Source: a bacterium
Lineage (GTDB): Bacteria; Patescibacteriota; Saccharimonadia; Saccharimonadales; UBA4665
Length of the DNA: 55,142 nucleotides
Reading direction: 5' to 3'
Assembly: GCA_021850865.1 (NCBI GenBank)
Contig: JAJZKN010000002.1
Coordinates: 47,588-102,729 of the forward strand
Shown: positions 36,180 through 53,751 of the stretch, one piece after another
How positions within the stretch are numbered: the first letter of the stretch is position 1
Layout: every line of letters starts with the position of its first letter
Made by a program: the position numbers and the translations under genes
The notes under the pieces: model-generated
The model's input: only the letters and a program-made list of their open reading frames with translations
Databases searched by the model: none
Told to the model about the DNA's origin: nothing

Positions 36180-37022
36180 ATGGAAAAACAAATAAAAGCT
36201 AGATTTATAAATATCCGTTTGCTACTAGCTGGCTTGGCTGTGTCGGTATTATTGCCACTATTATTGCTTACCCGGGCGGCCGCGGAAACGGTTATTACCC
36301 AGGGATTTAACAGTTCGAGTTATTTGTCTTCGGGAACAATGGTCAGCCTTGCTAACGGCAGTTCGAACGACGTAGCTATAGCTAGCACGAAGAACGTCTC
36401 TAATCTTATTGGTGTCGTTGTTCCGAGTAATAACTCCCAGGTGGCGTTAGCCTCTGGTAGCGGGCAGTTGCAGGTAGCAACCAGCGGACTCGGCCAGGTG
36501 CTGGTAACTGACATGAACGGTAAAATTTATCCAGGTGACGAAATTACCGTTTCGCCGATAAACGGCGTCGGTATGTTGGCGACAACCAATGGCCAGGTGA
36601 TCGGGACGGCCCAGGCGCCTTTCCCTAATTCCAGTGCCACCAGGGAAACGATCGCCACCTCCAGCGGCAAACAGACAGTTAATATAGGGGATATCCCGGT
36701 ACTGATCAGCGTCAGTTACTATAACAAGCAGCCCCAAAAAACGATTATTCCTACGGCGATTCAAAATCTGGCTAACGCCATTGCGGGCAAGCCGGTTAAA
36801 ACCCTGCCGATCATACTGAGCGCCGTTATTTTTGTCTTAACCCTTATTGCTGTCGTCAGCATAATCTATTCTTTGGTTCATGGCAGCATCATTTCCATTG
36901 GCCGCAATCCGATGGCCCAATCGGCGGTTTACCGCAACCTGTTGCAGTTATCGGCGCTGGTAGTCGCTATAATTGGAGTTGCGATGTTTGCCATTTTTAT
37001 GATATTAACGAAGGTAAGCTAA
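36180..37022 (+). CDS. c-like ring subunit with extracytoplasmic domain, no ion-binding acid
   Basis: The 280-residue protein begins with a signal peptide or anchor (1-35) and an exported beta-rich domain (36-205; IYPGDEITVSP near 116). Two membrane helices follow (209-234 and 253-277), joined by GRNPMAQSAVYRN (241-253), the cytosolic polar loop that F-type c subunits have as R-Q/N-P. Counting from R242 as in E. coli c (R41), the proton-carrying Asp61 position is Val262. The Gly-rich face of helix 1 is also lost. N-out/C-out topology agrees with a c hairpin. It takes the atpE position in the operon and no a subunit precedes it. I infer a ring that cannot move protons but could turn an exported crown. 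Confidence 0.7.
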   Translation: MEKQIKARFINIRLLLAGLAVSVLLPLLLLTRAAAETVITQGFNSSSYLSSGTMVSLANGSSNDVAIASTKNVSNLIGVVVPSNNSQVALASGSGQLQVATSGLGQVLVTDMNGKIYPGDEITVSPINGVGMLATTNGQVIGTAQAPFPNSSATRETIATSSGKQTVNIGDIPVLISVSYYNKQPQKTIIPTAIQNLANAIAGKPVKTLPIILSAVIFVLTLIAVVSIIYSLVHGSIISIGRNPMAQSAVYRNLLQLSALVVAIIGVAMFAIFMILTKVS

Positions 37023-37032
37023 GCGGGGTGGC

Positions 37033-37638
37033 ATGAACTTATTTTTACAGATTTTTATCTACGTTGACGTCTTTATTATCGGGGTGGTATTTGCTACGGC
37101 GTTACGCCACGCTTATGCTCATTTCCGGCCTCATCCCGAGGCGGCGCATAATCAGGCAAAGCCTCAAGTTAAGCCTTCGCTGGATAAGGAGATGCGGACA
37201 GAACTGCTAGAGGAATCAGCAGCCAAGTACCGGCAGGTTCTGGAAAAGGAGGCGACCAAGCTGGGCGGTGAATTGGAGGTGACAGCCGAACGGATTAATA
37301 CGACCGTCAAGAAGCTGGCGGCGGATGTAGTTACCAAGGAGCTGGAGGGTTTTCAGCAGTTGTTTAAGGATTATCAGGCAAGCGCATCGGCCGAACTGGA
37401 GGGCACTAAGGATCAAACCGAAGCCTATAAAAACCAGTTGAAAGCCAAAATGGAGGAACAGGTTGAAGCAGAAAAGCAGCGCCTGATTGAGCTGATCGAC
37501 AACCGGCTGAGCGATTTAGTCATGTCTTTTTTAATTGAAGCTATGCAACACGAAATCGATCTAGGAGCCCAGGCGGACTATCTAATGAAGACCCTGGAAG
37601 ACCACAAAAACGAATTTAAACAAGCGTTGAACCAATGA
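37033..37638 (+). CDS. atpF: F-type ATPase b-like stalk subunit
   Basis: The 201-residue protein has one N-terminal membrane helix (5-25) and a long charged coiled coil (about 50-190), the form of the b peripheral stalk. Sequence similarity is weak, as is common for b, so the name rests on form and gene position between c* and delta. The retained stalk indicates that a stator is needed. It overlaps the next gene by 4 nt (ATGA). Confidence 0.75.
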   Translation: MNLFLQIFIYVDVFIIGVVFATALRHAYAHFRPHPEAAHNQAKPQVKPSLDKEMRTELLEESAAKYRQVLEKEATKLGGELEVTAERINTTVKKLAADVVTKELEGFQQLFKDYQASASAELEGTKDQTEAYKNQLKAKMEEQVEAEKQRLIELIDNRLSDLVMSFLIEAMQHEIDLGAQADYLMKTLEDHKNEFKQALNQ

Positions 37639-38123
37639 AGCTGAATTTGGGCGAGAACATAATTTCTCCGGCCGACTTAAGGTCGCTGATTGAAGAAGTT
37701 GAAGCCTATGCCGCCTATTCACGACACCGGCACATCCAGGCAAGAGCCGGGGCTAGGCCGACGAAAAACACCCCCAGGATTAGCGAAACCGCGAATGAAT
37801 TCCTGGCGGCGAATAAACCGAAAGACGGGTATAAACTGCGTGATTTGGATAGGCTTATAGCCGAGCTGGAACAGCGCTATCACAAATCGCCTCAGGCCAG
37901 AATCACCCTGGCCGATATCGCCTCAACGGGCTTAAAGCTGAGCATAAGCAATTGGCTAAGACTTAATGTCAACGAATCGGTGTTGATTGATTTCCGCAGC
38001 GACTCGACTATCCTTGGGGGAATGATCGTAGTTGTCGGTAGCCATATTTATGATTGGTCAATGCGCCGCCAATTACTTGAGACTAAAAATAAACTAATTG
38101 ATTTAGTGAGCAATAATGTTTGA
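37635..38123 (+). CDS. atpH: F-type ATPase delta-like subunit
   Basis: The 162-residue protein has a poorly conserved helical N-terminal part and a C-terminal end close to delta/OSCP: VLIDFRSDSTILGGMIVVVG (near 117-136), followed by IYDWSMRRQLL, matching the family's V-x-S-LIGG...VG...D-S-x-x-x-L. Delta ties the b stalk to the top of F1. A basic middle segment (30-45) is unusual. It overlaps b by 4 nt and alpha by 8 nt. Confidence 0.75.
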   Translation: MKLNLGENIISPADLRSLIEEVEAYAAYSRHRHIQARAGARPTKNTPRISETANEFLAANKPKDGYKLRDLDRLIAELEQRYHKSPQARITLADIASTGLKLSISNWLRLNVNESVLIDFRSDSTILGGMIVVVGSHIYDWSMRRQLLETKNKLIDLVSNNV

Positions 38124-39591
38124 AAACCGTAGGTTTCAGAAGCTGATCGAACAGGACAAGCTTAGTGGCGAAGTAGTTTCCACTAACGGCTTTATAATCG
38201 AGGTTAAGGGATTGAGTGGCGTCAGATTGGGTGCGCAAGTGCTGTTTGAGGACGGCCAGCGTGGACTGGTTCGAGAGGCCTATACTGACCGGGCTGTGTT
38301 GTTTAATATCGATTCAGAGCACATGGAGCCAGGTACGTTGGCGGTTGTGGAGAATGATTTATTGCAAGTACCGGTCGGCCAGGAGTTGATTGGACGGATA
38401 GTCACTCCGATGGGTGATCCGATCGATGGCAAGGGGCCGTTAAAAGCCCGTAAAACCTCAGGGATTTTCAATCAGGCACCGGGGATTATGGCCCGGAGCA
38501 TGCTAAACCAGCAGTTGGCCAGCGGCGTGCCGGCGGTGGATATGTTTTTTCCGATCGTCCTCGGGCAGAGAATTGCCATTTTAGGTGATAGTAAATCCGG
38601 CAAAAGTACTTTTCTGAGCCAGTTGGCGGCCAACCAGCAGGGTAATGACCGGATAGTGGTTTATGCAATGATCGGCAAACGCAAAGTAGATATCGAGGCG
38701 CTGCTCGCCGGACTTAATGAGTCCAAAGCGATGGATCATACTATTGTCGTCATTGCTGACATTTTCGATTCTCTATCGTTGTCCTATTTGGCGCCCTATG
38801 CCGCTTGCGCGATGGCCGAAGAACTATGGTACGCCGGTCATGACGTAATTATTGTCTATGACGATTTGTCATCCCATGCTGAAGCCTACCGGCAGCTGTC
38901 GCTGATCCAGGAAGTTGATCCGGGCCGGGATTCTTATCCTGGCGATATGTTTTACTCCCATTCGTCACTGCTGGAACGGGCCGGCAAGTTAAAAACCAGC
39001 CAAAAAACGTTGACCGCCCTACCGGTGGTTGTTACGCCCAATGATGACATCACTGCTTATCTATCGACCGCGATTATGTCTATTACCGATGGCCAGATAA
39101 TCTTTGATTTAAATGTTTTTCGCCAAGGCATCAGGCCGGCGGTGAATGCCGGGTTATCGGTATCCCGGGTCGGCGGTCAGGCTCAAAACGTGCGCCAGAA
39201 GCGTTTATCCGGTACGTTGTTCCAAAAAGTCGCGGCCTACCATCGGGCGGAGGAGTTTTCTCACTTTGGCTCCAACTTATCCAAAGAATCGGCTACCGAT
39301 TTGAGGTTGGGCAAGCAAATTTACGGCGTACTTAAACAACGGCCAGATGAGCTGTACAGTTTAACGGTGCAGCAGCTGGTACTGGAAACGGTTCTGCTCG
39401 GCAACGCCCAGAGCGAACTGGATATTGACGGCCTGAAACGGGCGAGCAAAGAAAGTGAGCGGCAGATAAAAGACGACAAAGATTTCGACCGGATTGAGAC
39501 CGAGCTTCTGAAACGTTTCTCATCGCCGCTGGCTGATACCGAGCCGGCGGGCAAACAAGAGGAGGGTTCATCATCCGATGCGTCGACCTAG
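38116..39591 (+). CDS. atpA: F1-type ATPase alpha subunit (divergent)
   Basis: The 491-residue protein follows alpha throughout: P-loop GDSKSGKS (about 157-164; usual GDRQTGKT), DDLSSHAEAYRQLSLI, GRDSYPGDMFYSHSSLLERA, ITDGQIIFDLNVFRQGIRPAVN and GLSVSRVGGQAQ with the arginine finger. It should pair with beta in a hexamer. The last 70 residues are charged and less conserved. Divergence is greater than between usual bacterial alphas, fitting a specialised paralogue. Eight-nt overlap with delta, 14 nt with gamma. Confidence 0.9.
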   Translation: MFENRRFQKLIEQDKLSGEVVSTNGFIIEVKGLSGVRLGAQVLFEDGQRGLVREAYTDRAVLFNIDSEHMEPGTLAVVENDLLQVPVGQELIGRIVTPMGDPIDGKGPLKARKTSGIFNQAPGIMARSMLNQQLASGVPAVDMFFPIVLGQRIAILGDSKSGKSTFLSQLAANQQGNDRIVVYAMIGKRKVDIEALLAGLNESKAMDHTIVVIADIFDSLSLSYLAPYAACAMAEELWYAGHDVIIVYDDLSSHAEAYRQLSLIQEVDPGRDSYPGDMFYSHSSLLERAGKLKTSQKTLTALPVVVTPNDDITAYLSTAIMSITDGQIIFDLNVFRQGIRPAVNAGLSVSRVGGQAQNVRQKRLSGTLFQKVAAYHRAEEFSHFGSNLSKESATDLRLGKQIYGVLKQRPDELYSLTVQQLVLETVLLGNAQSELDIDGLKRASKESERQIKDDKDFDRIETELLKRFSSPLADTEPAGKQEEGSSSDAST

Positions 39592-40441
39592 CGCTATTCT
39601 AGAAGATACCGAGCAGGTAGAAACTGTCGAGGATTTGACCGGAGTATTTGAGTCTCTGGCGACCACTCAGATCGCCAAAGTCAAAAATAAAGTAGATATG
39701 TCCAAGGAGTTCTTTAATCTGTTGTGGGCTAAGTATGCTTCGTTGCGTCTGGACCCGCAGTCGCGAATTACCAGCCGGGCTCGTAGCAGCAATGGACGAA
39801 TTGTTTTCGTGGTTATTTCCGCCGAAGCGGGCTTGTCCGGAGATATTGATCAACGTTTGATTGAAACGGTGCTTAGGGATTATGATCAGAAGTCCACCGA
39901 TATTGTGGTTTTGGGTAGTCACGGCGCCCAGCAATTGATGCAGCGCGGAGTCCGCTATGTTAAGTATTTCCGGGTGCCCACTAGTGATAGCTATATCGAC
40001 GTTAGTCCAGTCATTGAGGCAATTTCACCGTATGCTCAAGCTAAGGTTTATTACGAAGAGTATATATCGATTGGTGTTCAGGATATTAAATCGATCGATC
40101 TGATTCAGTCGATTCAAACAATGAGCAAAGACAGCGAAGGCAGCGAAGACATTATTTCCGAAAAAGACACGATCTTTGAGCCGTCGCTCAACGAAATTGC
40201 TGACATTATGGAGACGGCAATGATGAGCTTGGCGTTTTCCCAGGTGATTCTTGAATCGGGTTTGGCCCAGGACGCCAGCCGGTTTAATGCTATGGCGGTA
40301 GCCAAAAAACGAGCGTCGGAACTGGTGGGCCTCTATTCGATGGAATACAACCGGGCCAGACGCTCGCAAAACGACCGGCAAATGCGGGAAGTGATGGTCG
40401 CGCTGAAACGTAAAAAACATGAGCGGAGTAAATATGCCTGA
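39578..40441 (+). CDS. atpG: F1-type ATPase gamma-like rotor subunit
   Basis: The 287-residue protein has the gamma arrangement: a long N-terminal helix (25-60), a Rossmann-like middle (GRIVFVVISAEAGLSGDIDQ, then IVVLGSHGAQQL) and a C-terminal helix with SRFNAMAVAKKRASELVGLY and EYNRARRSQNDRQMREV, the well-conserved end that turns in the hexamer. A 20-residue acidic insert (about 186-205) is unusual. Presence of gamma indicates a rotating machine rather than a simple hexameric ATPase. Confidence 0.85.
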   Translation: MRRPSAILEDTEQVETVEDLTGVFESLATTQIAKVKNKVDMSKEFFNLLWAKYASLRLDPQSRITSRARSSNGRIVFVVISAEAGLSGDIDQRLIETVLRDYDQKSTDIVVLGSHGAQQLMQRGVRYVKYFRVPTSDSYIDVSPVIEAISPYAQAKVYYEEYISIGVQDIKSIDLIQSIQTMSKDSEGSEDIISEKDTIFEPSLNEIADIMETAMMSLAFSQVILESGLAQDASRFNAMAVAKKRASELVGLYSMEYNRARRSQNDRQMREVMVALKRKKHERSKYA

Positions 40442-41870
40442 GCTGGACAATGACCCCGATTACGTCGGTAAAATTACCGCCCTTAAGGGCTTGATGGTAG
40501 AAGTGGAAATCCTTGGCGCCAAGCCTACCGAAGGCGAACTGCTGCAGGTTGAAGGAATTAAGGATGTCCAGTTGCAAGTATCTTACTTTACGGATGACGG
40601 TGCGATTTGCGTCAACATCACCAACAATGTCGAGTTGTGCTGCGGGCTCAGTGTCAGCCGGACCAGGCATAAAGTCTCCGTGCCGGTCGGGCAGGAAACG
40701 CTAGGAAGGGTGTTTAACGCTTTGGGAAAGCCGCTTGATAACGGACCGGAACTGCAACATAACCGAAGAGTGGTCTCCGAGCCAAGCGGTATTAAATCCT
40801 ATCGTAAAGCCCAGCAGCTGGAGTTACTGGAGACCGGGCTTAAAGTTATCGATTTTCTCACTCCATTCGTTAAAGGACGCAAGATCGGTATTGTCGGGGG
40901 CGCCGGCGTCGGCAAGACGGTGCTGACGATGGAAATGATCCATAACGTTACCCGAAACGACAAAAGCCTGTCGATTTACTGCGGCGTCGGTGAGCGGATC
41001 CGCGAGGGCAACGAACTTTACGAAACGCTGAAGGAAACGGATGTATTGAAAAACACGGTAATGTTCTTCGGTCAGATGGACTCTACGCCGGCGATCCGGT
41101 CAATGGTAGGCCCGGCGGCCGCCACGGCTGCAGAGTACTTCCGCGACGAGGAGGGCCGTGACATTTTATTCTTCGCCGACAACATATACCGGCATATTCA
41201 GGCAATGACCGAGATCTCGACTAATTTCGGCCTGATTCCGTCCGAGGGCGGCTATGCCCCGAACGTATTCTCCGAGCTGAGACGACTGCAGGATCGGTTA
41301 AGTTCTACCGAAAAAGGGTCGATTACTTCGGTTCAGGCAGTATATATACCGGCCGATGACTTAAGCGATCCGGCGGTACAGTCAATTCAACAGCAGCTGG
41401 ACTCGGTGCTGGTACTCTCCCGGTCGATTGCCGAACAGGGGATTCGTCCGGCGGTTGATTTGCTAAAAACCACTTCATCGTTACTGACGCCGCAGATTGT
41501 CGGACAACGGCATTATGATCTGGTCTCGAAAGTCCAGGCGATAATGCAAAAATACGATTCACTTAAAAACATCATCGCGATTATCGGCGAGAACGAACTG
41601 TCTCCGGCCGATCGGCAGGATTACCAGAATGCCAAGAAGTTGATTACTTTCTTTTCGCAGGATTTTGCGGTGGCCGAGCATTTAACTGGCAAGGCAGGGG
41701 AATATTTTACCCGGGAACAGACCCTGGCTGGCATAGAAGAGATTTTAGGGATCAGTGCGCCGCCATCCGGCGCCGTCACCACTCCCCCATCACCCAAACC
41801 CGTCCGAAGAATAGCCGACAAAGCAAAAAACCGACTCGCTGGAAAGACTAAAACAGCCAAGCGTTTATGA
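40434..41870 (+). CDS. atpD: F1-type ATPase beta subunit (catalytic)
   Basis: The 478-residue protein has all catalytic elements: P-loop GGAGVGKT (near 155-162), CGVGERIREGNE with the catalytic Glu (near 188), LFFADNIYRHIQA (Walker B region), IPADDLSDPA and the catch-loop region ELSPADRQDY in place of DELSEED. ATP hydrolysis should therefore be possible. ATG 40434 is preferred to ATG 40419 because GCGGAG lies about 6 nt before it and the overlap with gamma (8 nt) resembles the other junctions. A basic, Pro-rich tail (450-478) is additional. Confidence 0.93.
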   Translation: MPELDNDPDYVGKITALKGLMVEVEILGAKPTEGELLQVEGIKDVQLQVSYFTDDGAICVNITNNVELCCGLSVSRTRHKVSVPVGQETLGRVFNALGKPLDNGPELQHNRRVVSEPSGIKSYRKAQQLELLETGLKVIDFLTPFVKGRKIGIVGGAGVGKTVLTMEMIHNVTRNDKSLSIYCGVGERIREGNELYETLKETDVLKNTVMFFGQMDSTPAIRSMVGPAAATAAEYFRDEEGRDILFFADNIYRHIQAMTEISTNFGLIPSEGGYAPNVFSELRRLQDRLSSTEKGSITSVQAVYIPADDLSDPAVQSIQQQLDSVLVLSRSIAEQGIRPAVDLLKTTSSLLTPQIVGQRHYDLVSKVQAIMQKYDSLKNIIAIIGENELSPADRQDYQNAKKLITFFSQDFAVAEHLTGKAGEYFTREQTLAGIEEILGISAPPSGAVTTPPSPKPVRRIADKAKNRLAGKTKTAKRL

Positions 41871-42124
41871 ATCAGGACCGCTTGCTTAAAGTTGACGCCC
41901 GTTCGCCGTTTGAGGTTTATTTCCAAGATAGCGCCTTAACGGTCAGCGGCAGCAATAAAGTGGGCAAGTTCGATATTCTACCCGGACACGCCGACTTCTT
42001 TTCGATTATCAATCCGGACAGTGAACTAGTGATCGGGACCGACCAAGAAGACATCCGGATTACCGCCAGCAACGGCATTATCTGCGTTAAGGATGATCAG
42101 GTACAGCTGTTTTTGAATATCTAG
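41867..42124 (+). CDS. atpC: F1-type ATPase epsilon subunit, N-terminal domain only
   Basis: The 85-residue protein is the beta-sandwich of epsilon (VGKFDILPGHADFFSII near 33-48, then ITASNGIICVKDDQVQLFL). The two C-terminal helices, which in most bacteria inhibit ATP hydrolysis, are missing. It overlaps beta by 4 nt and ends the operon. Lack of the inhibitory helices fits a machine meant to hydrolyse ATP. Confidence 0.85.
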   Translation: MNQDRLLKVDARSPFEVYFQDSALTVSGSNKVGKFDILPGHADFFSIINPDSELVIGTDQEDIRITASNGIICVKDDQVQLFLNI

Positions 42125-42135
42125 GCAAAACCCAA

Positions 42136-43203
42136 TTACTGTTCGACTATATAGTCAAGCTGATATAGACTGGCGTTTAAAGCCGAGGCGGTGTAAATAT
42201 CAAAGCCGCCGGTAGATAAATTGGCGACATAAAAGTCGCCCCAGCGGTTTAGGGGAGAAATGACAACGACAGGTGTGGCGCCGTAAGCTGAATGAAAAGC
42301 GATATGCGCGACAGCGCCGCTGGTTGCGGGGTTGGCGCCGACATTAATGTCGATAATCCCGGACATATCGTTGCCGCTGAGACTGACCGTGCCGTTAGAG
42401 CCGATGGCCGGTCCGGCCGGTCCGACCGCCGGACTGGATCCGGTAGTGACAATGTGTCCTTCGGCCTGAACAATGCCGGAAATTACCAGGTTTGATCCGG
42501 CAAGGGTGTTGGCGCTCAGTTCGCCACCAACGGATAAATTATTGGCTACGGCGGCACTACTGTCGACAGTGAGCAGCTGGGCAACCGTAACCGTATTCTG
42601 AAACTGAACAGCACCCCCGACAGATAAGTTGTTGCGGACGCTGAGCGACGACGCAGTAGCGCTGCCGTTGATATTCAGCGAGCTTACCGATGTATTGCCG
42701 GCCTGAAGCTGGGCCAGAATGGCGCTGGAAGCAGTCAGCGGCGCGTTAAGATGCAGCTGCCCACCGATACTGGCGCTGCCGGCTACCGTCAGGTTGGAGC
42801 CGAATACGGTATTCGGTCCGATACTCAGCTGTTCGTTGCTGTTGCCGATCTGGGCGTCGGTGACCCCCAGTTTATTTAATGTCGCCGGACTGATAGTTAC
42901 CGATTTGTTGCTGATGGCTTTCTGGTTGGAGCTTTCTTTTTGCAGCAAGAACAACAGCACGCCGGCGTTAAGCGCAATGATCAGGATGACGACCCCCAGC
43001 CCGATGAACGTCGCCTTGTGGCTTGGGCGGTAAGCAAATAGCCGCCGCTTCTGGGTGTCGCTCGGAGTGCTGTGACTGACTTTGGTCGTATCTTTTGTCT
43101 CGGTCTCGACTTTTTCACTCTCGTCCCGGGTTTTGAGTGTTTCGCCCGTCACAGAGCTATCCAGGGATTTATGATTGTTCTCCGATTCCGGAACGTTTGC
43201 CAC
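42136..43203 (-). CDS. surface protein with beta-roll repeats, membrane-anchored
   Basis: The 355-residue protein has a charged cytosolic part (1-65), one membrane helix (about 65-88) and an exported region with repeated motifs of 15-20 residues (NLTVAGSASIGGQLHLNA, NLSVGGAVQFQNTVTVAQLL, NLSVGGELSANTL), likely a left-handed beta-roll as in trimeric adhesins. A C-terminal beta domain (about 270-355, HIAFHSAYGATPVVVISPLN) caps it. The same motifs occur in the giant protein at 48613. It ends 12 nt from the ATPase operon, tail to tail, and is divergent from the next gene. Confidence 0.65.
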   Translation of the reverse strand: MANVPESENNHKSLDSSVTGETLKTRDESEKVETETKDTTKVSHSTPSDTQKRRLFAYRPSHKATFIGLGVVILIIALNAGVLLFLLQKESSNQKAISNKSVTISPATLNKLGVTDAQIGNSNEQLSIGPNTVFGSNLTVAGSASIGGQLHLNAPLTASSAILAQLQAGNTSVSSLNINGSATASSLSVRNNLSVGGAVQFQNTVTVAQLLTVDSSAAVANNLSVGGELSANTLAGSNLVISGIVQAEGHIVTTGSSPAVGPAGPAIGSNGTVSLSGNDMSGIIDINVGANPATSGAVAHIAFHSAYGATPVVVISPLNRWGDFYVANLSTGGFDIYTASALNASLYQLDYIVEQ

Positions 43204-43257: not shown

Positions 43258-43998
43258 ATGAGCGTATTGGGAAGACGGCGGCAATATCTTATCTATCTGG
43301 CTTTCTTTACTGTCTGGAGCATAGCTGCCACCGGGTATGTATCGGTCTTCGCCAGCAAGTCTACCAATTACCAGTTAATTGAAACCTCCGTCGGTGGAAC
43401 GGGGTCAATTAACACCTCTTCTCCTAATTACCAGGCCAGTGAATCGGGAGCGATTATCGGGTATGGCACTTCTACTGGTACGGCCTATCAGATTCAAGCC
43501 GGGCATGAAACCACCAGCGCGCCAACCCTGTCGCTTTCGATACTTAGCGCCAGTCCGAGTTTTGGCAGTTTTTCACCGACAACGACGGCCACGGCAACCT
43601 CTCAGTTCGAGGTAAGCGACTATACCAGCTACGGATATGTCGTCCAGATGTATGGTACGCCGCCAACTAACTCTTACGGCGACACAATCGCTCCGTTACT
43701 GGCGAATGCGGCGCCCAAGGTCGGCGTTGATCAGTACGGGTTTAACCTGGTAGCCAACACCGTGCCCATAACTTTCGGTGCCAATCCCAATTTCGGCCAA
43801 TTCGGCTTTGGCAGCGTGGCTACTAACTATGCCACATCTAATAGCTACCGCTTTGTCAACGGCGAAGAGATTGCTTATTCCGGCAAAAGCTCGGGAATTA
43901 CCGTTTATACCATCAGCTATATCGTTGATGTCGCCCAATTAACACCTGGCGGCCAGTACGCATCCACGCAAAATATTGTCTGTACCGCCACCTATTAA
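43258..43998 (+). CDS. secreted beta protein, WxL-like family member 1
   Basis: The 246-residue protein has a signal peptide (8-33) and a beta-rich mature part. The last 120 residues (DQYGFNLVANTVP ... YTISYIVDVAQLTPGGQYASTQNIVCTATY) match in order the C-terminal halves of the two proteins encoded next, a Y...YIVDV...GxY...C-T-x-T-aromatic ending that recalls WxL surface domains. TATAAT (43244-43249) ends 8 nt before the ATG, giving a leader of about 2 nt. Confidence 0.65.
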   Translation: MSVLGRRRQYLIYLAFFTVWSIAATGYVSVFASKSTNYQLIETSVGGTGSINTSSPNYQASESGAIIGYGTSTGTAYQIQAGHETTSAPTLSLSILSASPSFGSFSPTTTATATSQFEVSDYTSYGYVVQMYGTPPTNSYGDTIAPLLANAAPKVGVDQYGFNLVANTVPITFGANPNFGQFGFGSVATNYATSNSYRFVNGEEIAYSGKSSGITVYTISYIVDVAQLTPGGQYASTQNIVCTATY

Positions 43999-44100: not shown

Positions 44101-45261
44101 ATGTCAGCTAGACTGAAGAAATTGCTATATCTAGCAGTTGCTACTGGTTTAGGTGTATTTTCATTATCCAGTTTAATACTGCCTGGAGTTGCTTCGGCCG
44201 GCGTCCTTGAACCAAGAAGCTTAACGCTGCAAGCGGGTGCCACCGCCGGTGGATCCGATCCTGGCGGCACGGTAAACAACTTATTCCAGTTTACTATTCC
44301 TTCCACGGATACTTCTACGGCGATCCAGTCAATGAGCTTCCAATATTGTGAGGAAGCGGACAGCACCTGCGGTAATTTAAATACCGACTATGCGATGAGT
44401 ACGACCGGAGCCACGATAGGAGCCGCAACCTCATCTTTTCTAAGTACTTTTACGCTCGCCACTCCGGCTACCCAGCTCGAGCCGATTATTAGTTCGACTA
44501 CTGCTTTCACGCCGGGAACCAACGACGTTGTGACGGTACAGCTCGACGGTATTGTCAACCCGAACGTTGCCAACTATTCATTTTATGTCAGAATTACGAC
44601 CTGGACCGGCACCGACGGCTCCGGAACGGCTGTTTCTACGGGTAACGTGGCTGCAGCAACGGCCAACCCAATTCAACTAAGCGGCCAGATGCCCGAATCA
44701 TTGGTTTTTTGTACCGGTGCTACTGTCGGCGAGACGTCCGGAGTACCAGATTGTACCACTGCAACAGCCGGATCAGTCAGCTTTACTACTCTTTTCTCAC
44801 CTAACTATACCTCTACGGCGACTTCCCAGATGGCGGCGTCGACCAACGCCGGCAGCGGTTACGCCATAACCGTTAACGGTAATACGCTGCAGAGCGGTAG
44901 CTATTCAATTACGGCAATTGGAGCAACGGCTGCGAGTCCGGTGCATGGCACGGACCAGTTCGGGATGAATTTAATGGCGAATACGACCCTAACTGCAACC
45001 CCCGCACCTGGAGCGGCAGTTACGCCCGCTTCTGACGGAGTTAACTATTTTGCTCTCCCGACGACCGCCTACGGCACAGTTGACGAGTATGCATTCAGTT
45101 CCGGCAACACGGTGGCAACCAGTGGTTACTCGACTGGTACGCCGACGGTTGGTTCCGACGCACAGATTTATACCACGACCTATATCGTTGACGTTCAGGG
45201 TAGGCAGCAAGCCGGTACTTATACAACAACGCTTACTTACATCTGTACACCGACTTTCTAA
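44101..45261 (+). CDS. secreted beta protein, WxL-like family member 2
   Basis: The 386-residue protein has a signal peptide (1-36) and two parts: an N-terminal domain starting RSLTLQAGATAGGSDPGG with FQYCEEADSTCG, and a C-terminal domain with MPESLVFCTGATVGETSGVP, then MAASTNAGSGYAITVNGNTL and a final YTTTYIVDV ... AGTYTTTLTYICTPTF. It is a full-length paralogue of the next gene; paired cysteines suggest disulfides. It may be a wall-bound or secreted surface component. A rich A/G leader precedes the ATG. Confidence 0.7.
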   Translation: MSARLKKLLYLAVATGLGVFSLSSLILPGVASAGVLEPRSLTLQAGATAGGSDPGGTVNNLFQFTIPSTDTSTAIQSMSFQYCEEADSTCGNLNTDYAMSTTGATIGAATSSFLSTFTLATPATQLEPIISSTTAFTPGTNDVVTVQLDGIVNPNVANYSFYVRITTWTGTDGSGTAVSTGNVAAATANPIQLSGQMPESLVFCTGATVGETSGVPDCTTATAGSVSFTTLFSPNYTSTATSQMAASTNAGSGYAITVNGNTLQSGSYSITAIGATAASPVHGTDQFGMNLMANTTLTATPAPGAAVTPASDGVNYFALPTTAYGTVDEYAFSSGNTVATSGYSTGTPTVGSDAQIYTTTYIVDVQGRQQAGTYTTTLTYICTPTF

Positions 45262-45317: not shown

Positions 45318-46445
45318 ATGTTTCTGAGGCGGAATCCGGGGAAACTGTACTTGGCGGTTATAGCAGTATTCATCGTTGCCTTGGCCGGTGCGATGTTTCC
45401 TCAACAGCAAGTACAGGCAGCCCAAATAACAAACAGAAGTCTAACATTACAAGCAGGCGCTAGTGCTGGTGGTTCTGATCCAGGCGGCGTTGTCAATCAC
45501 TTATTCCAGTTTACGGTTCCTTCCAGCTCGCCGATTCAATCGATTGAGTTTCAATATTGTGTCTATGCTGAAGGCAGTACTTGCGGTACGCTGACGGGAC
45601 TGGTAACGACTTCCGCGACGATCGGCGCTTCAACTTCATCGGCACTTAGCACATTTACACTCGTTAACACCACCAACGCCGATCCATACCTTACCTCATC
45701 CACCGCTTATACGCCGGCCGCCAATACGGCTTTGACGGTTCAGCTGGATACGGTTACCAACCCGACCACCGCTAACTACGCCTTTTACGTCAGGATATCC
45801 ACCTGGAAAGAAGCTACTCCCGGTACTACTGAGGTTGATTCGGGAACGGTAGCAGCTTCAACCGCTAACCCGATCGTACTAACCGGTACGATGCCTGAAT
45901 CACTGATCTTTTGTACCGGCGCTACGGTGAGTGAAACCAGCGGCGTGCCCGACTGCACCACCGCCACGGCTGGGAATATAACTTTCCCGATGCTCTTTAG
46001 TCCGACAGCCACGGCTTACACGACTTCACAGATGGCCGCCTCCACCAATGCTACCACCGGCTATGTCATAACGGTTAACGGCAATACGCTGCAGAGCGGC
46101 ACTTATTCGGTCACGGCTATGACTACGGCGACCACTTCAACGATCGGTTCGTCACAATTCGGGATGAATCTTGAAGTAAATACTACGCCGGCTGTAGGAA
46201 CGGCCGTGACCCCGACTTCGGACGGTGTCAATTATTTCGCTTATCCGCAGACCGGCTACAATACGGCCAATACCTTTAAATTCCATTCAGGCGACACGGT
46301 AGCGGACAGCTCTGACGGCACGCCGCCACCCAAGCCTACCGACTCGCAGATTTATACTGTATCATATATCGTTAACGTACCTGGTAACTTGCCTCCCGGA
46401 ACGTATACGACGACGTTGACATACATTTGTACGCCGACGTTTTGA
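45318..46445 (+). CDS. secreted beta protein, WxL-like family member 3
   Basis: The 375-residue protein is a close paralogue of the previous gene across its length: RSLTLQAGASAGGSDPGG, FQYCVYAEGSTCG, MPESLIFCTGATVSETSGVP, TGYVITVNGNTLQSGTYS and the ending GTYTTTLTYICTPTF. Signal peptide 1-35. It has its own leaderless promoter, so its dose can differ from its twin. A tandem duplication is the simplest origin. Confidence 0.7.
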   Translation: MFLRRNPGKLYLAVIAVFIVALAGAMFPQQQVQAAQITNRSLTLQAGASAGGSDPGGVVNHLFQFTVPSSSPIQSIEFQYCVYAEGSTCGTLTGLVTTSATIGASTSSALSTFTLVNTTNADPYLTSSTAYTPAANTALTVQLDTVTNPTTANYAFYVRISTWKEATPGTTEVDSGTVAASTANPIVLTGTMPESLIFCTGATVSETSGVPDCTTATAGNITFPMLFSPTATAYTTSQMAASTNATTGYVITVNGNTLQSGTYSVTAMTTATTSTIGSSQFGMNLEVNTTPAVGTAVTPTSDGVNYFAYPQTGYNTANTFKFHSGDTVADSSDGTPPPKPTDSQIYTVSYIVNVPGNLPPGTYTTTLTYICTPTF

Positions 46446-47494: not shown

Positions 47495-48493
47495 ATGCCC
47501 GCCAATATTAGCCTGAAAAGCCGTAGTCATAGTGGCCACTTAAGGCCACACGAGTATACATCTTATGCGCCACTGGGTGCATTGGTGTTGATTGCCGGTA
47601 TTCTGCTGTCGCTGCTAACCGTTTCGTCGTTCGCTTCCGCCAGCCCGCCGCCCCAATCCTCGTCTATCGCCTTAAGCGGAATTATGCCCGGATCCCCGCC
47701 ATCTACCGCCGCGAGTATTACTTATCCGGCCAACTTGCAGACTATCGCCAACTCGCCGGTGTCCGTCAGCGGCAGTTGTCCGTCGACCACCCTTGTTGAG
47801 ATTTATAAAAACAATATTTTTGCCGGGGCTGTCCCCTGCAGCAGCAACGGCACCTATTCGCTCAAGGTCGATTTACTCTACGGCCAGAATACACTCACTG
47901 CCGTTGACTACAACAACCTTAACCAAGCCGGCCCAACCTCTCAGCCGGTCAGCATTACCTATAACGTTCAAACACCCGTCCAGTCATTGCTCCAAAATAT
48001 TAATTTTTCCTCAACTCAGCTAATCGTCGAAACTGATGCCATTTACCGGGGCGTTCTTCCCAACCAGCAGTTCTACGTACCGATTAAGATTATTGGCGGC
48101 GTGGCTCCCTTTGCGCTCAATGTCAACTGGGGGGATAACACTAACCAAGTTATCCCGTCCAGCTCAAATACTACCGTCAACGCCAGCCATGTTTATAAAC
48201 AGCCGGGGATTTACAAGATAGTCATTCAGGCTAGCGACAGTCAACAGCGGGTAGCTTTTCTTCAGGTGGCGGCGATCGTTAACGGCCAGCCCGCGCTGGG
48301 TATCGGAGCGACCGGTGCATCGAACAATTCATCCGGCATTACCAACAAGCTGCTGGTTCTTTGGCCGCTGTATGCTTGCGTGGCTACTCTGGTTGTCAGT
48401 TTCTGGATGGGTGAAAAACGGGAAAAGCATGTATTAGAAGACGCCCTAAAGCCGGTACCCCATCTAGGACCGACGCCGCACCCAACGCACTAA
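47495..48493 (+). CDS. surface protein with Ig-like and PKD domains and C-terminal anchor
   Basis: The 332-residue protein has an N-terminal hydrophobic signal (about 28-50), a bacterial Ig-like domain (about 70-150), a PKD-like domain (about 180-262, with LNVNWGDNTNQVI and VYKQPGIYKIVIQASD) and a C-terminal membrane helix (about 287-307) followed by a charged, Pro/His-rich tail. It follows the DUF916-like gene after 22 nt in the same operon and is likely a further part of a surface complex. Confidence 0.7.
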   Translation: MPANISLKSRSHSGHLRPHEYTSYAPLGALVLIAGILLSLLTVSSFASASPPPQSSSIALSGIMPGSPPSTAASITYPANLQTIANSPVSVSGSCPSTTLVEIYKNNIFAGAVPCSSNGTYSLKVDLLYGQNTLTAVDYNNLNQAGPTSQPVSITYNVQTPVQSLLQNINFSSTQLIVETDAIYRGVLPNQQFYVPIKIIGGVAPFALNVNWGDNTNQVIPSSSNTTVNASHVYKQPGIYKIVIQASDSQQRVAFLQVAAIVNGQPALGIGATGASNNSSGITNKLLVLWPLYACVATLVVSFWMGEKREKHVLEDALKPVPHLGPTPHPTH

Positions 48494-48612: not shown

Positions 48613-51600
48613 ATGAGTTTGGGAAAACGGGCTAAATCCCAGTTACTGATGTATAAGGCAGCGGCACTTGCGGCCTTGCTGTTAATTGTGCTAATCGTTC
48701 TGTCGCCGAACGCCCAGGCCGCTACCGGCATTAATCAGATGATCGAATTCCAAGGCCGGTTGTTAAACGCACAGGGCGCTACTGTTCCGGACGGCTATTA
48801 CAACATGGAGTTTAAGATTTACGAAAACGGTGATGGCACCGCTGCCGGCGACACTAGCGGTACGCCAGCCGGAACACTGCTGTGGACGGAGGATTATTTA
48901 AATTACAACACCCAGGGAGTTAAAGTAGTGAACGGTTTCCTGTCGGTTGAGCTGGGGTCAATCAACCCGTTCGGCAGCAGCATTAACTGGAATCAGGATA
49001 CTCTGTGGCTGTCGATGAATGTGGCTGGCACGTCAACGACCTGTACTACCTTTACTGCCTGTAGTCCAGATGGAGAGATGTTGCCGATGCAGCGGCTGAC
49101 CGCCAGCCCGTACGCGCTTAATGCCGGACAGCTGGGCGGGATGAGCAGTTCCCAGTTTGTCCAGTTGGGTCAGGGATTAGTGCAAACCGACGCCTCGACT
49201 AATGCCAGTATTTATATTAACAAGACGGGCACCGGCAACCTGTTGGACTTACAGTCCGCAGGGGTTAATTCATTTATTTTGGGCAACACCGGCGATCTAT
49301 CCTTTGGTTCCAATACGGCGACGCATAATATTGGGGTCAATACCGCCGCCGCGGCAACCGCCGGTACTGCGCTAAACATTTCCGCTGGGGCTGCCGGCAG
49401 TGGCAGTACTGCGCTGGCGGGCGGCAATCTTAATCTAACCGCCGGCACTGGCGGCGGCACTAACGGTAATGGCGGCAATGTCAGTATTGACGGCGGTCTT
49501 GCTAACGGTACGGGTACTAACGGCACGGTTGGAATCGGCACCGTTAATGCCAGCGGAGTTAGTATTGGGAATACGACCGGAGCAAGCGGTATCGCGATGG
49601 CGGTTGGCACCGGTAATTTTAGCCTGAACGGCGTCGGGGCTTCCACCTATGCGGTAGGTGCAGCCACTACTACCGGCACTATTACATTAGGCGGTAGTGC
49701 TCAAACCGGTGCTTTGGCGCTTCAGGCTCAAGGGATATCCGAATCGATTGACGGTAGCTCGACGGCTCCGGGAGTAGTTTTTCAGTCCTCGACTAACTCG
49801 GCTACGACGCTGCAGGTGCAAAACAGTAGCGGCAATCGAATCTTTGCCGTCGACACTTCGGGCAACCAGGCGGTTTTCGGCCAGTCCGGAGCGCAAAACG
49901 GCGCGGTGGAATTTAAAAACAGCTCTAATGCCAACACTATCAGTATTAACAGCAACAGCGTCTATTCCAGTTACAATTTGACTCTGCCAACCGTAGCGCC
50001 AAGCACCGGTTTGTGTCTGGAGACCAGTACTTCCAGCAGTTCGCAATTGGTTTTTGTCAGCTGTTCCAATAATAACGCCAGTATTACCGAAGTCCAGGAG
50101 TGGGATGGAAGCGGGGTCAACACTTTAGCTGACAGTCCTAGCAACGTTGGCGATGAAATGATTTTGACTACTGCGATCCCGACCAGCGGGGTTAGCGTAA
50201 CTTCGGTTACCGGGGGCGGCGTGTCTTCCTGGACCAAAGTATTAGCCAACAATGGCAATACGTCCTTATCGAGGGTGGAAATGTGGGTCGGTACGGTCAC
50301 GACAACGGGAGCGCAAACTATCACCGTAACCTATTCATCATCCCCGGGCACCGAGGAAATAACCGCCACTGAATTCACGGCCGCCGGAGTTAACGGCGCT
50401 ACTAACTGGGGTATTGATGCCAGCGGTTCCCAGCTCAATACCACGGCGTCGACCACCGTGACCTTCCCGAGTATTAATTCGACCAACAGCGACGAACTCT
50501 ATGTTGGTTACTCGCAAGTCCAGTATCCGCCCGCGTCGGCCGGTACCACCACTAATTTCAATTACATTATTACCAGTATTCAACACAATGTCCTGGCTTA
50601 TGACCTTTCGACGAACGCCAACACTAATTATCAGCCGACAGCTAGCCAAAGCACCGCCGGCGAGTCTAACGCCATTGCCATAATGTTGACTGCCTTTGTC
50701 AGCAGTTCGGCGATTAACAACTCAACATCGCTCCAGAAGGCTAACTATTATGTCCAGGCTTCGACCACTGGATCGGTCGCCGGCGTTTTGCAGGCGGCAC
50801 CAACCGGTTCCGGAGATGTTTTGGATCTGCGAAATGGCGCGGGTAATAACGTGGCCAGCTTTTCGGCTACCGGCGCAACCTTACTGCAAAACTCAACCGA
50901 TTCAACGGCGGCGTTCAGCGTTCAGGACGCTAACGGCCACAGTATCCTGGGAGTAGACACTACTAATGGCCAGGTTAGTTTAGGCTCGGGTAATAACGTG
51001 GACGGTGTACTAAACTTTTACGGTACGGCCAACACTAACGCAATTACAATTGCTTCTCCATCAACAATTGCCGCCAGCTACAATTTAAGTCTTCCGGCTA
51101 ACGCGCCAAGCGCCGGACTTTGTCTGGCTACCAGTCCTTCTAGTGCCACTCAGCTAGTGTTTACCTCGTGCGCTCAAGAAGTTACGGCTGCCACCATTTC
51201 TTTTGTTAATGACTGGTCAATTAACGGCACGGATGTTACTACCCTGGCTGACGCTCCGGCTAATGTCGGCGATTTGATGGTCTTTTATTCTATGGGCAGT
51301 AAAAATAGCGGCACAATTGCCAGTATCAGTGGCGGCGGCGTGTCGGTCTGGTCCAAAGTTACCAGCTATGATGCCGGCTCGACTAACTCAACCACTGTCG
51401 AGATGTGGCGCGGCGTGGTTACTACAACGGGCGCCAATACGCTGACGGTTACCTATAACAGTACGCCCGGCGTGAATGAACTGTCGGCGATTGAATATAC
51501 AATCGGAAGCACTACGGGTACCTGGGACATTGACACCAGTGCGACGCTAGTCGGTAGCGGCACGACAGTTGACTATCCGAGCCTGATCCCCACCAACTCC

Positions 51601-53751
51601 AGTGAGCTATATACCGGTTATGCTGTCGGCTCCAGTACTATGAGCGCTGGGACAACGCCCGGCTATAGCTATATCGGTACCAGCTTGGGGAACTACATCG
51701 CCTACAATTTATCGGTCAGCGGCGGGGTGGCCACTCAGCCGAGCGTGACTCAATCAAGCAGTACCGGCTATACCTCAATCGCGGCGACGATTGCGGCCTA
51801 TAACACCAACTCAGTGATTGCCGATTCAACCGCTACCCAGCAGGCCAACTTTAACGTCCAGGCGGCTACGTCCGGTAGCGTAGCCGGGGTTTTGCAGGCT
51901 TATGCCGGCGGCGGCACCGCCGATATTCTTGACGTTCGAAACAATACCGGCAATAATGTCGCGGCCATAAACAGTACCGGCTTGACGCTTGGCACGTCGC
52001 AAGCGGTCGGCGGTTCACTTACTTTTACGGATGCGACAGATACCAATAAAATAACTATTGCCGCTCCGACTGCGCTTAGCTCCGGCTATAACCTTAGCTT
52101 GCCATCGGCCGCGCCAACCACCAATATGTGCTTAAGCACCAGTGCCGCCAGCTCTTCGCAACTGGTGTTTGCCAGCTGTTCATCGCAGGTAACCTCAAAG
52201 GCGATTAGCTTCGTTAAGGAATGGGATACCAACGGTTCAAACATTACGACACTCAACGTCGCTCCGGCTAATGTCGGCGATTTGATGCTGTTATGGTCCA
52301 GTCCGAACAACGCCGACTCCATCACCTCCATTAGTGGCGGCGGCGTCAACTCCTGGGCTAAAGTAACCAGCATTTCCGGTACCAACCAGCTGGAACTGTG
52401 GCGGGGAATCGTAGCAACTACCGGCGCCAGTACAATTAATATTACCTATTCGACCGGTACTGGTACGCCTACGGAAATTGCCGCCACTGAGTTTAGCATG
52501 GGCAGCACCAGCGGTACCTGGGTGGTGGATAACAGCGGTACTTCGGCTAACGGATCAAGTACTACGATTAATTACCCCAGCCTGACACCGCAAGACTATA
52601 GCGACCTGTACGTCGGGTACGCTGTCGGTACGAGCACGATGAGCGCCGGTACAACGCCTGGATATACTTATCTGGCGACCGGTCTCGGACGTTATTTTGC
52701 CTATGATACCTCTGTTGTGGGCACCCAGCAGCCGACCGCCACGCAGTCTACCGCCGGAGCTTCAACTTCAATCGCGGCTCTGATAGCCGCTTTTGCTTCC
52801 GATTCGGTAATTGCCAACACTCAAGCTATCCAGGAGGCAAATATTTATCTTCAGGCCGGAACCGCCGGTTCGGTGGCGGCGGTCTTCCAACCGGCCAGCG
52901 GCGGCACGGCCGATAGCGTGGATATTAATAACGGCAGCGGCACGTTGGTAGACAGCTTCGGCAATACCGGCAATTTTTTGGTTAAACCCTCGACAGCGAG
53001 CGCTAGTGCATTTCAGGTACAGAACCCGAGCGGCGTAAACGTTTTTGCGGTTGATTCGTCGGCGATGCGGGTGAATGTCGGTGCGGGAGCTACCGGGGAA
53101 ACAACGCCATCGCTGCTGGTGGTTGATTCACAGACTGGATCCAGCACCGACCCGGGTGAAGTCAACGGCGGCATATACTATAACGCCACCACCAATAGTT
53201 TCCGTTGCGGGGTAGCCGGCGCCTGGCAGACTTGCAGCGGTTTGCTTTATGCGAACACCAACCATTCGGCTTCGGTCAGTACCTGCACCAACAACTGCGG
53301 CGCGTTCAGCACCGCAGCATCGGTTCCGGCCGGATATTGTCAAGTAGGGAGAGCGATTAAGATAGTTAGCGACGGTTACTACAGTACCGGTACTACGGCA
53401 AGTTCACTGCAGCTGGGCCTGTATTACGGGACCAGCAGCACGGCTGCCAGCAGCGACACGTTGATTGGCACGCTGAGTCCAAGCGTCTCTACGACCTCGG
53501 CGACTAACTACTATTTTCAGCTGAATTATGATGTTGTCTGTTTCTCGACTTCGTCGATGCAGGCCGAGGGCACGCTGAGTATTCAAAATAGCGCCAGTTC
53601 CTCGGGAATGTTGGTGCTGCCGATAGCTACGACAACGGCGACAACAGTCGCTACCTCAAGCGCCAACAATCTGTACATCTTTCCGATCTGGAGCCTGGCC
53701 AGCTCATCCAATAGCGCCACTTTGACGCAAATGATTGTTAACGGTTACTAG
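48613..53751 (+). CDS. giant adhesin-like surface protein, 1712 aa
   Basis: A signal peptide (1-37) is followed by a conserved N-terminal domain (38-220: MIEFQGRLLNAQGATVPDGY, LWLSMNVAG, MLPMQRLTASPYALNAGQLG) that I recall from other CPR surface proteins. A Gly/Thr/Asn-rich beta-roll comes next (225-430), then three long repeats starting near 452, 821 and 1157, each with a CL.TS..S..QLVF..C motif, a 220-residue beta domain and a linker with GSVAGVLQ and ILDVRN-like parts. The end (1500-1712) holds a Cys-rich cap. No C-terminal anchor is seen. The repeats may be lectin-like and lengthen the fibre. It is the last gene of the surface locus. Confidence 0.75.
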   Translation: MSLGKRAKSQLLMYKAAALAALLLIVLIVLSPNAQAATGINQMIEFQGRLLNAQGATVPDGYYNMEFKIYENGDGTAAGDTSGTPAGTLLWTEDYLNYNTQGVKVVNGFLSVELGSINPFGSSINWNQDTLWLSMNVAGTSTTCTTFTACSPDGEMLPMQRLTASPYALNAGQLGGMSSSQFVQLGQGLVQTDASTNASIYINKTGTGNLLDLQSAGVNSFILGNTGDLSFGSNTATHNIGVNTAAAATAGTALNISAGAAGSGSTALAGGNLNLTAGTGGGTNGNGGNVSIDGGLANGTGTNGTVGIGTVNASGVSIGNTTGASGIAMAVGTGNFSLNGVGASTYAVGAATTTGTITLGGSAQTGALALQAQGISESIDGSSTAPGVVFQSSTNSATTLQVQNSSGNRIFAVDTSGNQAVFGQSGAQNGAVEFKNSSNANTISINSNSVYSSYNLTLPTVAPSTGLCLETSTSSSSQLVFVSCSNNNASITEVQEWDGSGVNTLADSPSNVGDEMILTTAIPTSGVSVTSVTGGGVSSWTKVLANNGNTSLSRVEMWVGTVTTTGAQTITVTYSSSPGTEEITATEFTAAGVNGATNWGIDASGSQLNTTASTTVTFPSINSTNSDELYVGYSQVQYPPASAGTTTNFNYIITSIQHNVLAYDLSTNANTNYQPTASQSTAGESNAIAIMLTAFVSSSAINNSTSLQKANYYVQASTTGSVAGVLQAAPTGSGDVLDLRNGAGNNVASFSATGATLLQNSTDSTAAFSVQDANGHSILGVDTTNGQVSLGSGNNVDGVLNFYGTANTNAITIASPSTIAASYNLSLPANAPSAGLCLATSPSSATQLVFTSCAQEVTAATISFVNDWSINGTDVTTLADAPANVGDLMVFYSMGSKNSGTIASISGGGVSVWSKVTSYDAGSTNSTTVEMWRGVVTTTGANTLTVTYNSTPGVNELSAIEYTIGSTTGTWDIDTSATLVGSGTTVDYPSLIPTNSSELYTGYAVGSSTMSAGTTPGYSYIGTSLGNYIAYNLSVSGGVATQPSVTQSSSTGYTSIAATIAAYNTNSVIADSTATQQANFNVQAATSGSVAGVLQAYAGGGTADILDVRNNTGNNVAAINSTGLTLGTSQAVGGSLTFTDATDTNKITIAAPTALSSGYNLSLPSAAPTTNMCLSTSAASSSQLVFASCSSQVTSKAISFVKEWDTNGSNITTLNVAPANVGDLMLLWSSPNNADSITSISGGGVNSWAKVTSISGTNQLELWRGIVATTGASTINITYSTGTGTPTEIAATEFSMGSTSGTWVVDNSGTSANGSSTTINYPSLTPQDYSDLYVGYAVGTSTMSAGTTPGYTYLATGLGRYFAYDTSVVGTQQPTATQSTAGASTSIAALIAAFASDSVIANTQAIQEANIYLQAGTAGSVAAVFQPASGGTADSVDINNGSGTLVDSFGNTGNFLVKPSTASASAFQVQNPSGVNVFAVDSSAMRVNVGAGATGETTPSLLVVDSQTGSSTDPGEVNGGIYYNATTNSFRCGVAGAWQTCSGLLYANTNHSASVSTCTNNCGAFSTAASVPAGYCQVGRAIKIVSDGYYSTGTTASSLQLGLYYGTSSTAASSDTLIGTLSPSVSTTSATNYYFQLNYDVVCFSTSSMQAEGTLSIQNSASSSGMLVLPIATTTATTVATSSANNLYIFPIWSLASSSNSATLTQMIVNGY

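Follow-up and report, generated by a model that had tools for sequence, protein, structure and literature searches.

The window, by which we mean the whole stretch of 55,142 nucleotides that was analysed, carries an F1-like operon whose first gene (36180-37022, + strand, ATG start codon) encodes a putative c-like rotor protein of 280 residues with an exported domain. The locus raises the question of whether this protein is a true homologue of the c subunit of F-type ATP synthases and, if it is, what an F1-like enzyme would do with it. No Pfam or NCBIfam family was assigned to the full-length protein.

The AlphaFold2 model of the 280-residue protein (mean pLDDT 89) contains an N-terminal helix (residues 2-29), a beta domain (39-181), a helix at 192-202 and a C-terminal hairpin. 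A signal peptide was placed at residues ~1-35 (36180-36284, +) from the sequence, the N-terminal helix of the model and the hydropathy of the homologues; its n-region, MEKQIKAR, is followed by a hydrophobic core, and cleavage near TRAAA/ETV was judged by eye. The exported beta domain follows at residues ~36-185 (36285-36734, +). Helix 1 of the hairpin spans residues 208-242 (36801-36905, +) and helix 2 residues 246-279 (36915-37016, +), the two flanking a GRNP turn that forms the polar loop (residues 241-244; 36900-36911, +). A preliminary description of this DNA had proposed a signal peptide and exported domain ahead of the hairpin, which was borne out by an N-terminal hydrophobic segment in 75 of 77 distinct homologues, and an R-N-P loop at 242-244, which was found there and is kept in all 77. 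The hairpin that it had placed at 209-277 was present in the model of the protein alone, where the C-terminal helices match c, with the correction that the first helix begins near residue 208.

The position corresponding to the ion site in helix 2 is occupied by Val261/Val262 (36960-36965, +). The motif LVVAI covers residues 260-264, and Val262 lies at P+18, counted from the proline of the loop, where E. coli c has Asp61, as the preliminary description had claimed. The window protein thus has valine at both P+17 and P+18. The canonical c subunit encoded by the host's own genome has its ion-site glutamate at P+17, and other Patescibacteria c subunits have the acid at P+18.

The window protein and the F-type c subunit are truly homologous, and we regard this homology as firm because the profile search of PDB sequences, Foldseek, hhalign and the whole-genome matches agree. 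A profile of 31 hairpins searched against 177,635 distinct PDB sequences gave seven matches, all of them ATP synthase c subunits (best E 1.8e-4). When the hairpin model was compared with 350,542 PDB chains by Foldseek, ranks 1-44 were all c subunits, with TM up to 0.83 and rmsd of about 1.6-1.8 A for the best matches; the E-values are weak (0.4 and above), as for short helical models, and the evidence lies in the specificity of the match list. Alignment of the hairpin with canonical Patescibacteria c by hhalign gave a probability of 95 (P 4e-8) over 67 collinear columns, and the reversed-profile control gave 0.4 (P 0.15). After the five GRNP(L/M) motif columns were masked the probability was 24 (P 8e-4). 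A likeness due to the RNP motif alone was therefore rejected, the match to c being weakened by masking and still present, and a chance motif or artefact was ruled out by conservation in 77/77 homologues together with the reversed-profile control. In the whole-genome profile search of 16 genomes, the sole non-hairpin matches in seven were canonical c subunits; these matches were weak (E 5e-6 to 6e-3, three loci checked), and the c genes concerned adjoin a gene for the a subunit.

The features common to the window protein and F-type c (PF00137) are the two-helix hairpin, the cytoplasmic RNP loop, and the helix lengths and spacing. Unlike F-type c, the window protein has a signal peptide and an exported domain of ~150 residues ahead of the hairpin, and the hairpin proteins lack both the ion-binding Asp/Glu and the glycine motif of helix 1. 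With the threshold relaxed to E<1, PF00137 itself matched just 2 of the 31 hairpin members (best 0.003).

The alignment of 77 distinct homologues defined what is constant and what has changed in the family. Both hairpin helices are present in all 77, as is the loop [GSAI]RNP, which reads GRNP in 70. An Asp or Glu at P+17 or P+18 was found in none of the 77, as against 21/21 canonical Patescibacteria c subunits, and no conserved acid was found elsewhere in helix 2 among the 77. A compensating acid was accordingly discarded, five homologues having a non-conserved Glu at P+12. The acidic residue that follows RNP in most canonical c subunits is Leu or Met in the hairpin family. Two columns of helix 1 that are glycine in 100% of canonical c are glycine in 12% and 9% of the family, and the alignment against canonical c showed no GxGxG-type packing motif in helix 1. 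Judged from these sequences, ion binding appears lost in the c-derived hairpin. The helix-1 glycines of c allow tight ring packing, so with their loss any ring must be packed differently or more loosely.

The exported domain is similar to decoration proteins of phage capsids (8pkh, E 7e-4), and it recurs in open frames of 500-4400 residues in the phylum (up to 4404). The hairpin is likewise found with other cargo. One genome (G147) encodes, at L148:457-8157 (-) near L141, an exported protein of 2566 residues with NHL repeats (propeller) and a Big domain, which ends in a c-like GRNP hairpin without a carboxylate; its gene lies ~10 kb from the third F1-like operon there, with an ABC transporter pair between. 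The same hairpin on such a protein indicates that it acts as a module fused to differing exported cargo, and would fit its use as a modular anchor that joins external cargo to a rotor.

The operon of the window (36180-42124) consists of seven genes on one strand, in the order hairpin, b, delta, alpha, gamma, beta and epsilon-N. The b-like peripheral-stalk protein (37033-37638, +) has an N-terminal TM segment and a coiled coil; sequence identifies it only weakly (NCBIfam match to subunit b, E 0.17), and the assignment draws also on alignment with the host's own canonical b and on gene position. The delta/OSCP-like subunit (37635-38123, +) was recognised by its C-terminal OSCP part (PF00213, E 3.9e-7). 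The F1 head set (alpha, beta, gamma, epsilon) is present with intact catalytic motifs: the alpha-like subunit (38116-39591, +) keeps the Walker A sequence GDSKSGKS and the arginine-finger motif SVSRV, and the beta-like catalytic subunit (40419-41870, +) keeps Walker A GGAGVGKT and the catalytic GER, with a degenerate DELSEED. The gamma-like rotor shaft (39578-40441, +) matches PF00231 (E 8e-27). The epsilon-like subunit (41867-42124, +; PF02823, E 3.9e-9) is a beta-sandwich only, and its lack of the C-terminal inhibitory helices fits a dedicated hydrolase. No a subunit (PF00119) was found in this operon or in any F1-like operon examined, PF00119 occurring at most once per genome and belonging to the canonical enzyme.

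The host, a member of the Saccharimonadales, also has a complete canonical F1Fo operon on contig C6, comprising a, c (RNP loop and Glu), b, delta, alpha, gamma, beta and a full epsilon. A second-type F1-like operon without a hairpin gene beside it was observed on contig C9 of the host (8.1-13.1 kb; L008:8108-13105) and in genome G030 (L150:6802-12028), adjoining in both cases iscS-like aminotransferase and tRNA-thiouridylase-like genes. On another contig of the host a lone hairpin gene adjoins Pam genes (L043:13445-14293).

The protein scan of contigs gave two close relatives only, and whole-genome searches were far more productive. A whole-protein match was obtained in 174 of 295 genomes of the order and a profile match in 142 of 380 genomes across the phylum, the number with the hairpin being below 142/380 because many weaker matches were to the exported domain only, inside very long frames. 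Of the 47 hairpin genes read with sufficient flank, 35 lay within 3 kb of F1-like alpha/beta genes, and for nine no F1-like operon was in view; the hairpin gene is usually the next one upstream of b or alpha. An F1-like alpha/beta pair was present in all 13 hairpin-positive genomes inspected (12 single-contig genomes and the host), either in addition to the canonical pair or as the sole pair. The latter applied to three single-contig genomes (G433, G550 and G397; loci L144, L104 and L143), in which the F1-like pair belongs to the only F1 complex and there is no a. The 20 hairpin-negative genomes comprised nine without an F1 complex at the threshold, ten with one, and G030 with a second, F1-like operon, so that 19 had no alpha/beta pair beyond the canonical. 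The inspected genomes were picked by hand from lists, and these counts show association, not frequencies.

One branch of the beta tree (86/99) parts the F1-like from the canonical beta subunits, of which there were four rows only; the topology is compatible with a single origin of F1-like beta. The b and delta genes are kept in most F1-like operons. An operon at L094:9236-13879 (G507) has a hairpin gene and lacks b and delta. At L098-L101 (family f114) two different hairpin genes cluster with one F1-like operon, possibly giving a heteromeric rotor.

Downstream of the operon lies a divergent gene (42136-43203, -) for a membrane-anchored surface protein with a cytoplasmic tail, one TM segment, a repeat region and a C-terminal domain. 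In most of the Saccharimonadales loci read it is conserved at this place, with the operon on one side and PamT on the other, and its product is a possible partner and candidate link between motor and pilus. Next come genes of a Pam (CPR-type) pilus: PamT (43258-43998, +; NF058579, E 7e-66, slightly below the cut-off, and NF058581 above the cut-off), two Pam pilins (44101-45261 and 45318-46445, both + and NF058581) and PamR, an RbmA-like pilus system protein (47495-48493, +; NF058578 over the cut-off). A protein of 1712 residues encoded after the Pam genes (48613-53751, +) had no NCBIfam match. Pam genes flank the F1-like operon in Saccharimonadales; in the loci read outside that order none were seen near F1-like operons. 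Among the large neighbours scanned in those other lineages no single conserved partner was found, the neighbours being mixed (a MerR-like N-terminus on giant proteins, Leu-tRNA synthetase, MutS/MutL). Literature text searches, with preprints and most subscription papers outside their scope, returned no description of Pam pili.

From these results we favour, with somewhat better than even confidence, the reading in which the c homologue together with b, delta, alpha, beta, gamma and the short epsilon makes up an F1-like, ATP-driven motor without a, acting on exported domains. ATP hydrolysis in alpha3-beta3 would turn gamma-epsilon while b and delta hold the F1-like head. The RNP loop contacts gamma and epsilon in known enzymes, and here the RNP loops would couple gamma-epsilon to a hairpin oligomer, probably a ring, which would take up the torque and turn in the membrane, carrying the exported domains round. 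Work would be done outside the cell, in Saccharimonadales probably by assembling, turning or tensioning the Pam pilus or acting on its base; the synteny suggests that this pilus is the probable target there. The enzyme would thus probably burn ATP to turn or move something at the cell surface instead of pumping ions. We infer the oligomer or ring, its rotation, the direction of energy flow and the pilus target, and likewise the crown of 8-15 rotating copies coupled to gamma that the preliminary description had envisaged. The c homology, the missing carboxylate, the invariant RNP, the lack of a, the catalytic motifs and the conserved operon speak for a motor, as do the F1-like pair in every hairpin-positive genome inspected, the three genomes in which it is the sole F1 pair, the Pam genes beside the operon in Saccharimonadales and the NHL protein with its terminal hairpin. 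Against it stand the hairpin genes far from F1-like operons, the F1-like operons with no hairpin gene nearby, the weakly assigned b, the loci beyond Saccharimonadales where no Pam genes were seen, the lost glycine motif, which makes ring formation uncertain, and the cargo of 2566 residues, which is hard to fit in many copies on one ring. The broader proposal, of a phylum-wide class of rotary ATPases in which an ion-independent, c-derived ring turns an extracellular crown, a pilus base or a giant adhesin, we consider evenly balanced.

The last two of these objections are also the points that favour a static anchor or receptor, in which one or a few c-derived hairpins would link the F1-like complex both with the membrane and with a protein at the surface, and a push-pull or conformational signal would pass outward with no ring or continuous rotation. 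Models of the F1-like X0 ATPases of mycoplasmas likewise invoke conformational change or a crank motion (PMC12994834, PMC11864180). However, the b and delta stator genes kept in most operons make sense mainly if the head is held against a turning rotor, and the coupling loop is invariant; an anchor is therefore a minority view that we would give perhaps one chance in a few. If the complex were an ATPase for export or assembly, on the analogy of FliI/FliJ, the F1-like head would power the movement of Pam pilins, or their assembly, through or around a hairpin ring. The Pam pilin genes do adjoin the operon, but the Pam proteins have N-terminal signal peptides of their own (by eye), so that Sec can export them, and in most other Patescibacteria the complex occurs with no Pam genes in view; we consider this role improbable, and the motor reading could still accommodate pilin assembly outside the membrane. 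The complex might also pump ions or make ATP through a non-canonical ion site, and the c homology, the presence of b and delta and the Glu at P+12 in a few homologues could be cited for this; we consider it very improbable given the absence of an acid at P+17/P+18 from every homologue and of a conserved one elsewhere in helix 2, the operons without a in genomes whose one PF00119 protein at most is that of the canonical enzyme, and the three one-contig genomes that have the complex and no a at all.

If an external crown does rotate, the complex would be a new class of motor. It would give a second reason for F1 genes in bacteria without respiration, and might also power the surface appendages of bacteria that live as epibionts on others. 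F1 genes in such genomes may also be misread as ATP synthase, G433, G550 and G397 holding the a-less form only.

Several known systems resemble the complex in part. The FliI/SctN export ATPases are likewise F1-like heads serving a surface appendage; they are homohexamers without gamma, epsilon or a c-like rotor. The N-type ATPases (alt_F1F0, TIGR03324/TIGR03305) are likewise encoded by a second F1-type operon in the genome, and they have an a subunit and a c ring that binds ions in the normal way (PMC5376962). The window alpha and beta scored far below the cut-offs of both FliI/SctN and alt_F1F0. We know of no described N-, V-, A- or F-type enzyme with such a c subunit, and the literature text searches, again with preprints and most subscription papers outside their scope, found none, in agreement with the preliminary description.

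The nearest analogue, set beside the window operon by published descriptions, appears to be the F1-like X0 ATPases of mycoplasmas, whose types 2 and 3 are the gliding motor of M. mobile and the MIB-MIP ATPase (PMC3369863, PMC12994834, PMC11864180). As here, these are encoded by an extra alpha/beta/gamma/epsilon operon without a, and action at the cell surface has been proposed for them (PMC3369863, PMC12994834, PMC11864180). Their clusters encode a 12-TM protein and have no separate b or delta genes, whereas in the window operon genes for b-like and delta-like subunits are present and a 12-TM protein is absent. As described, the mycoplasma clusters include a large protein with a signal peptide and two C-terminal TM helices, a layout that may correspond to that of the hairpin protein; no relation of that 2-TM protein to c is reported in the publications consulted, and protease data place part of the mycoplasma protein MSC_0620 in the cytoplasm. 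The path by which torque crosses the membrane is unknown for both the gliding motor and the MIB-MIP ATPase (PMC11864180, PMC12994834), and a c-homologous rotor with a domain outside would offer a concrete, testable answer to that crossing in other ultrasmall bacteria.
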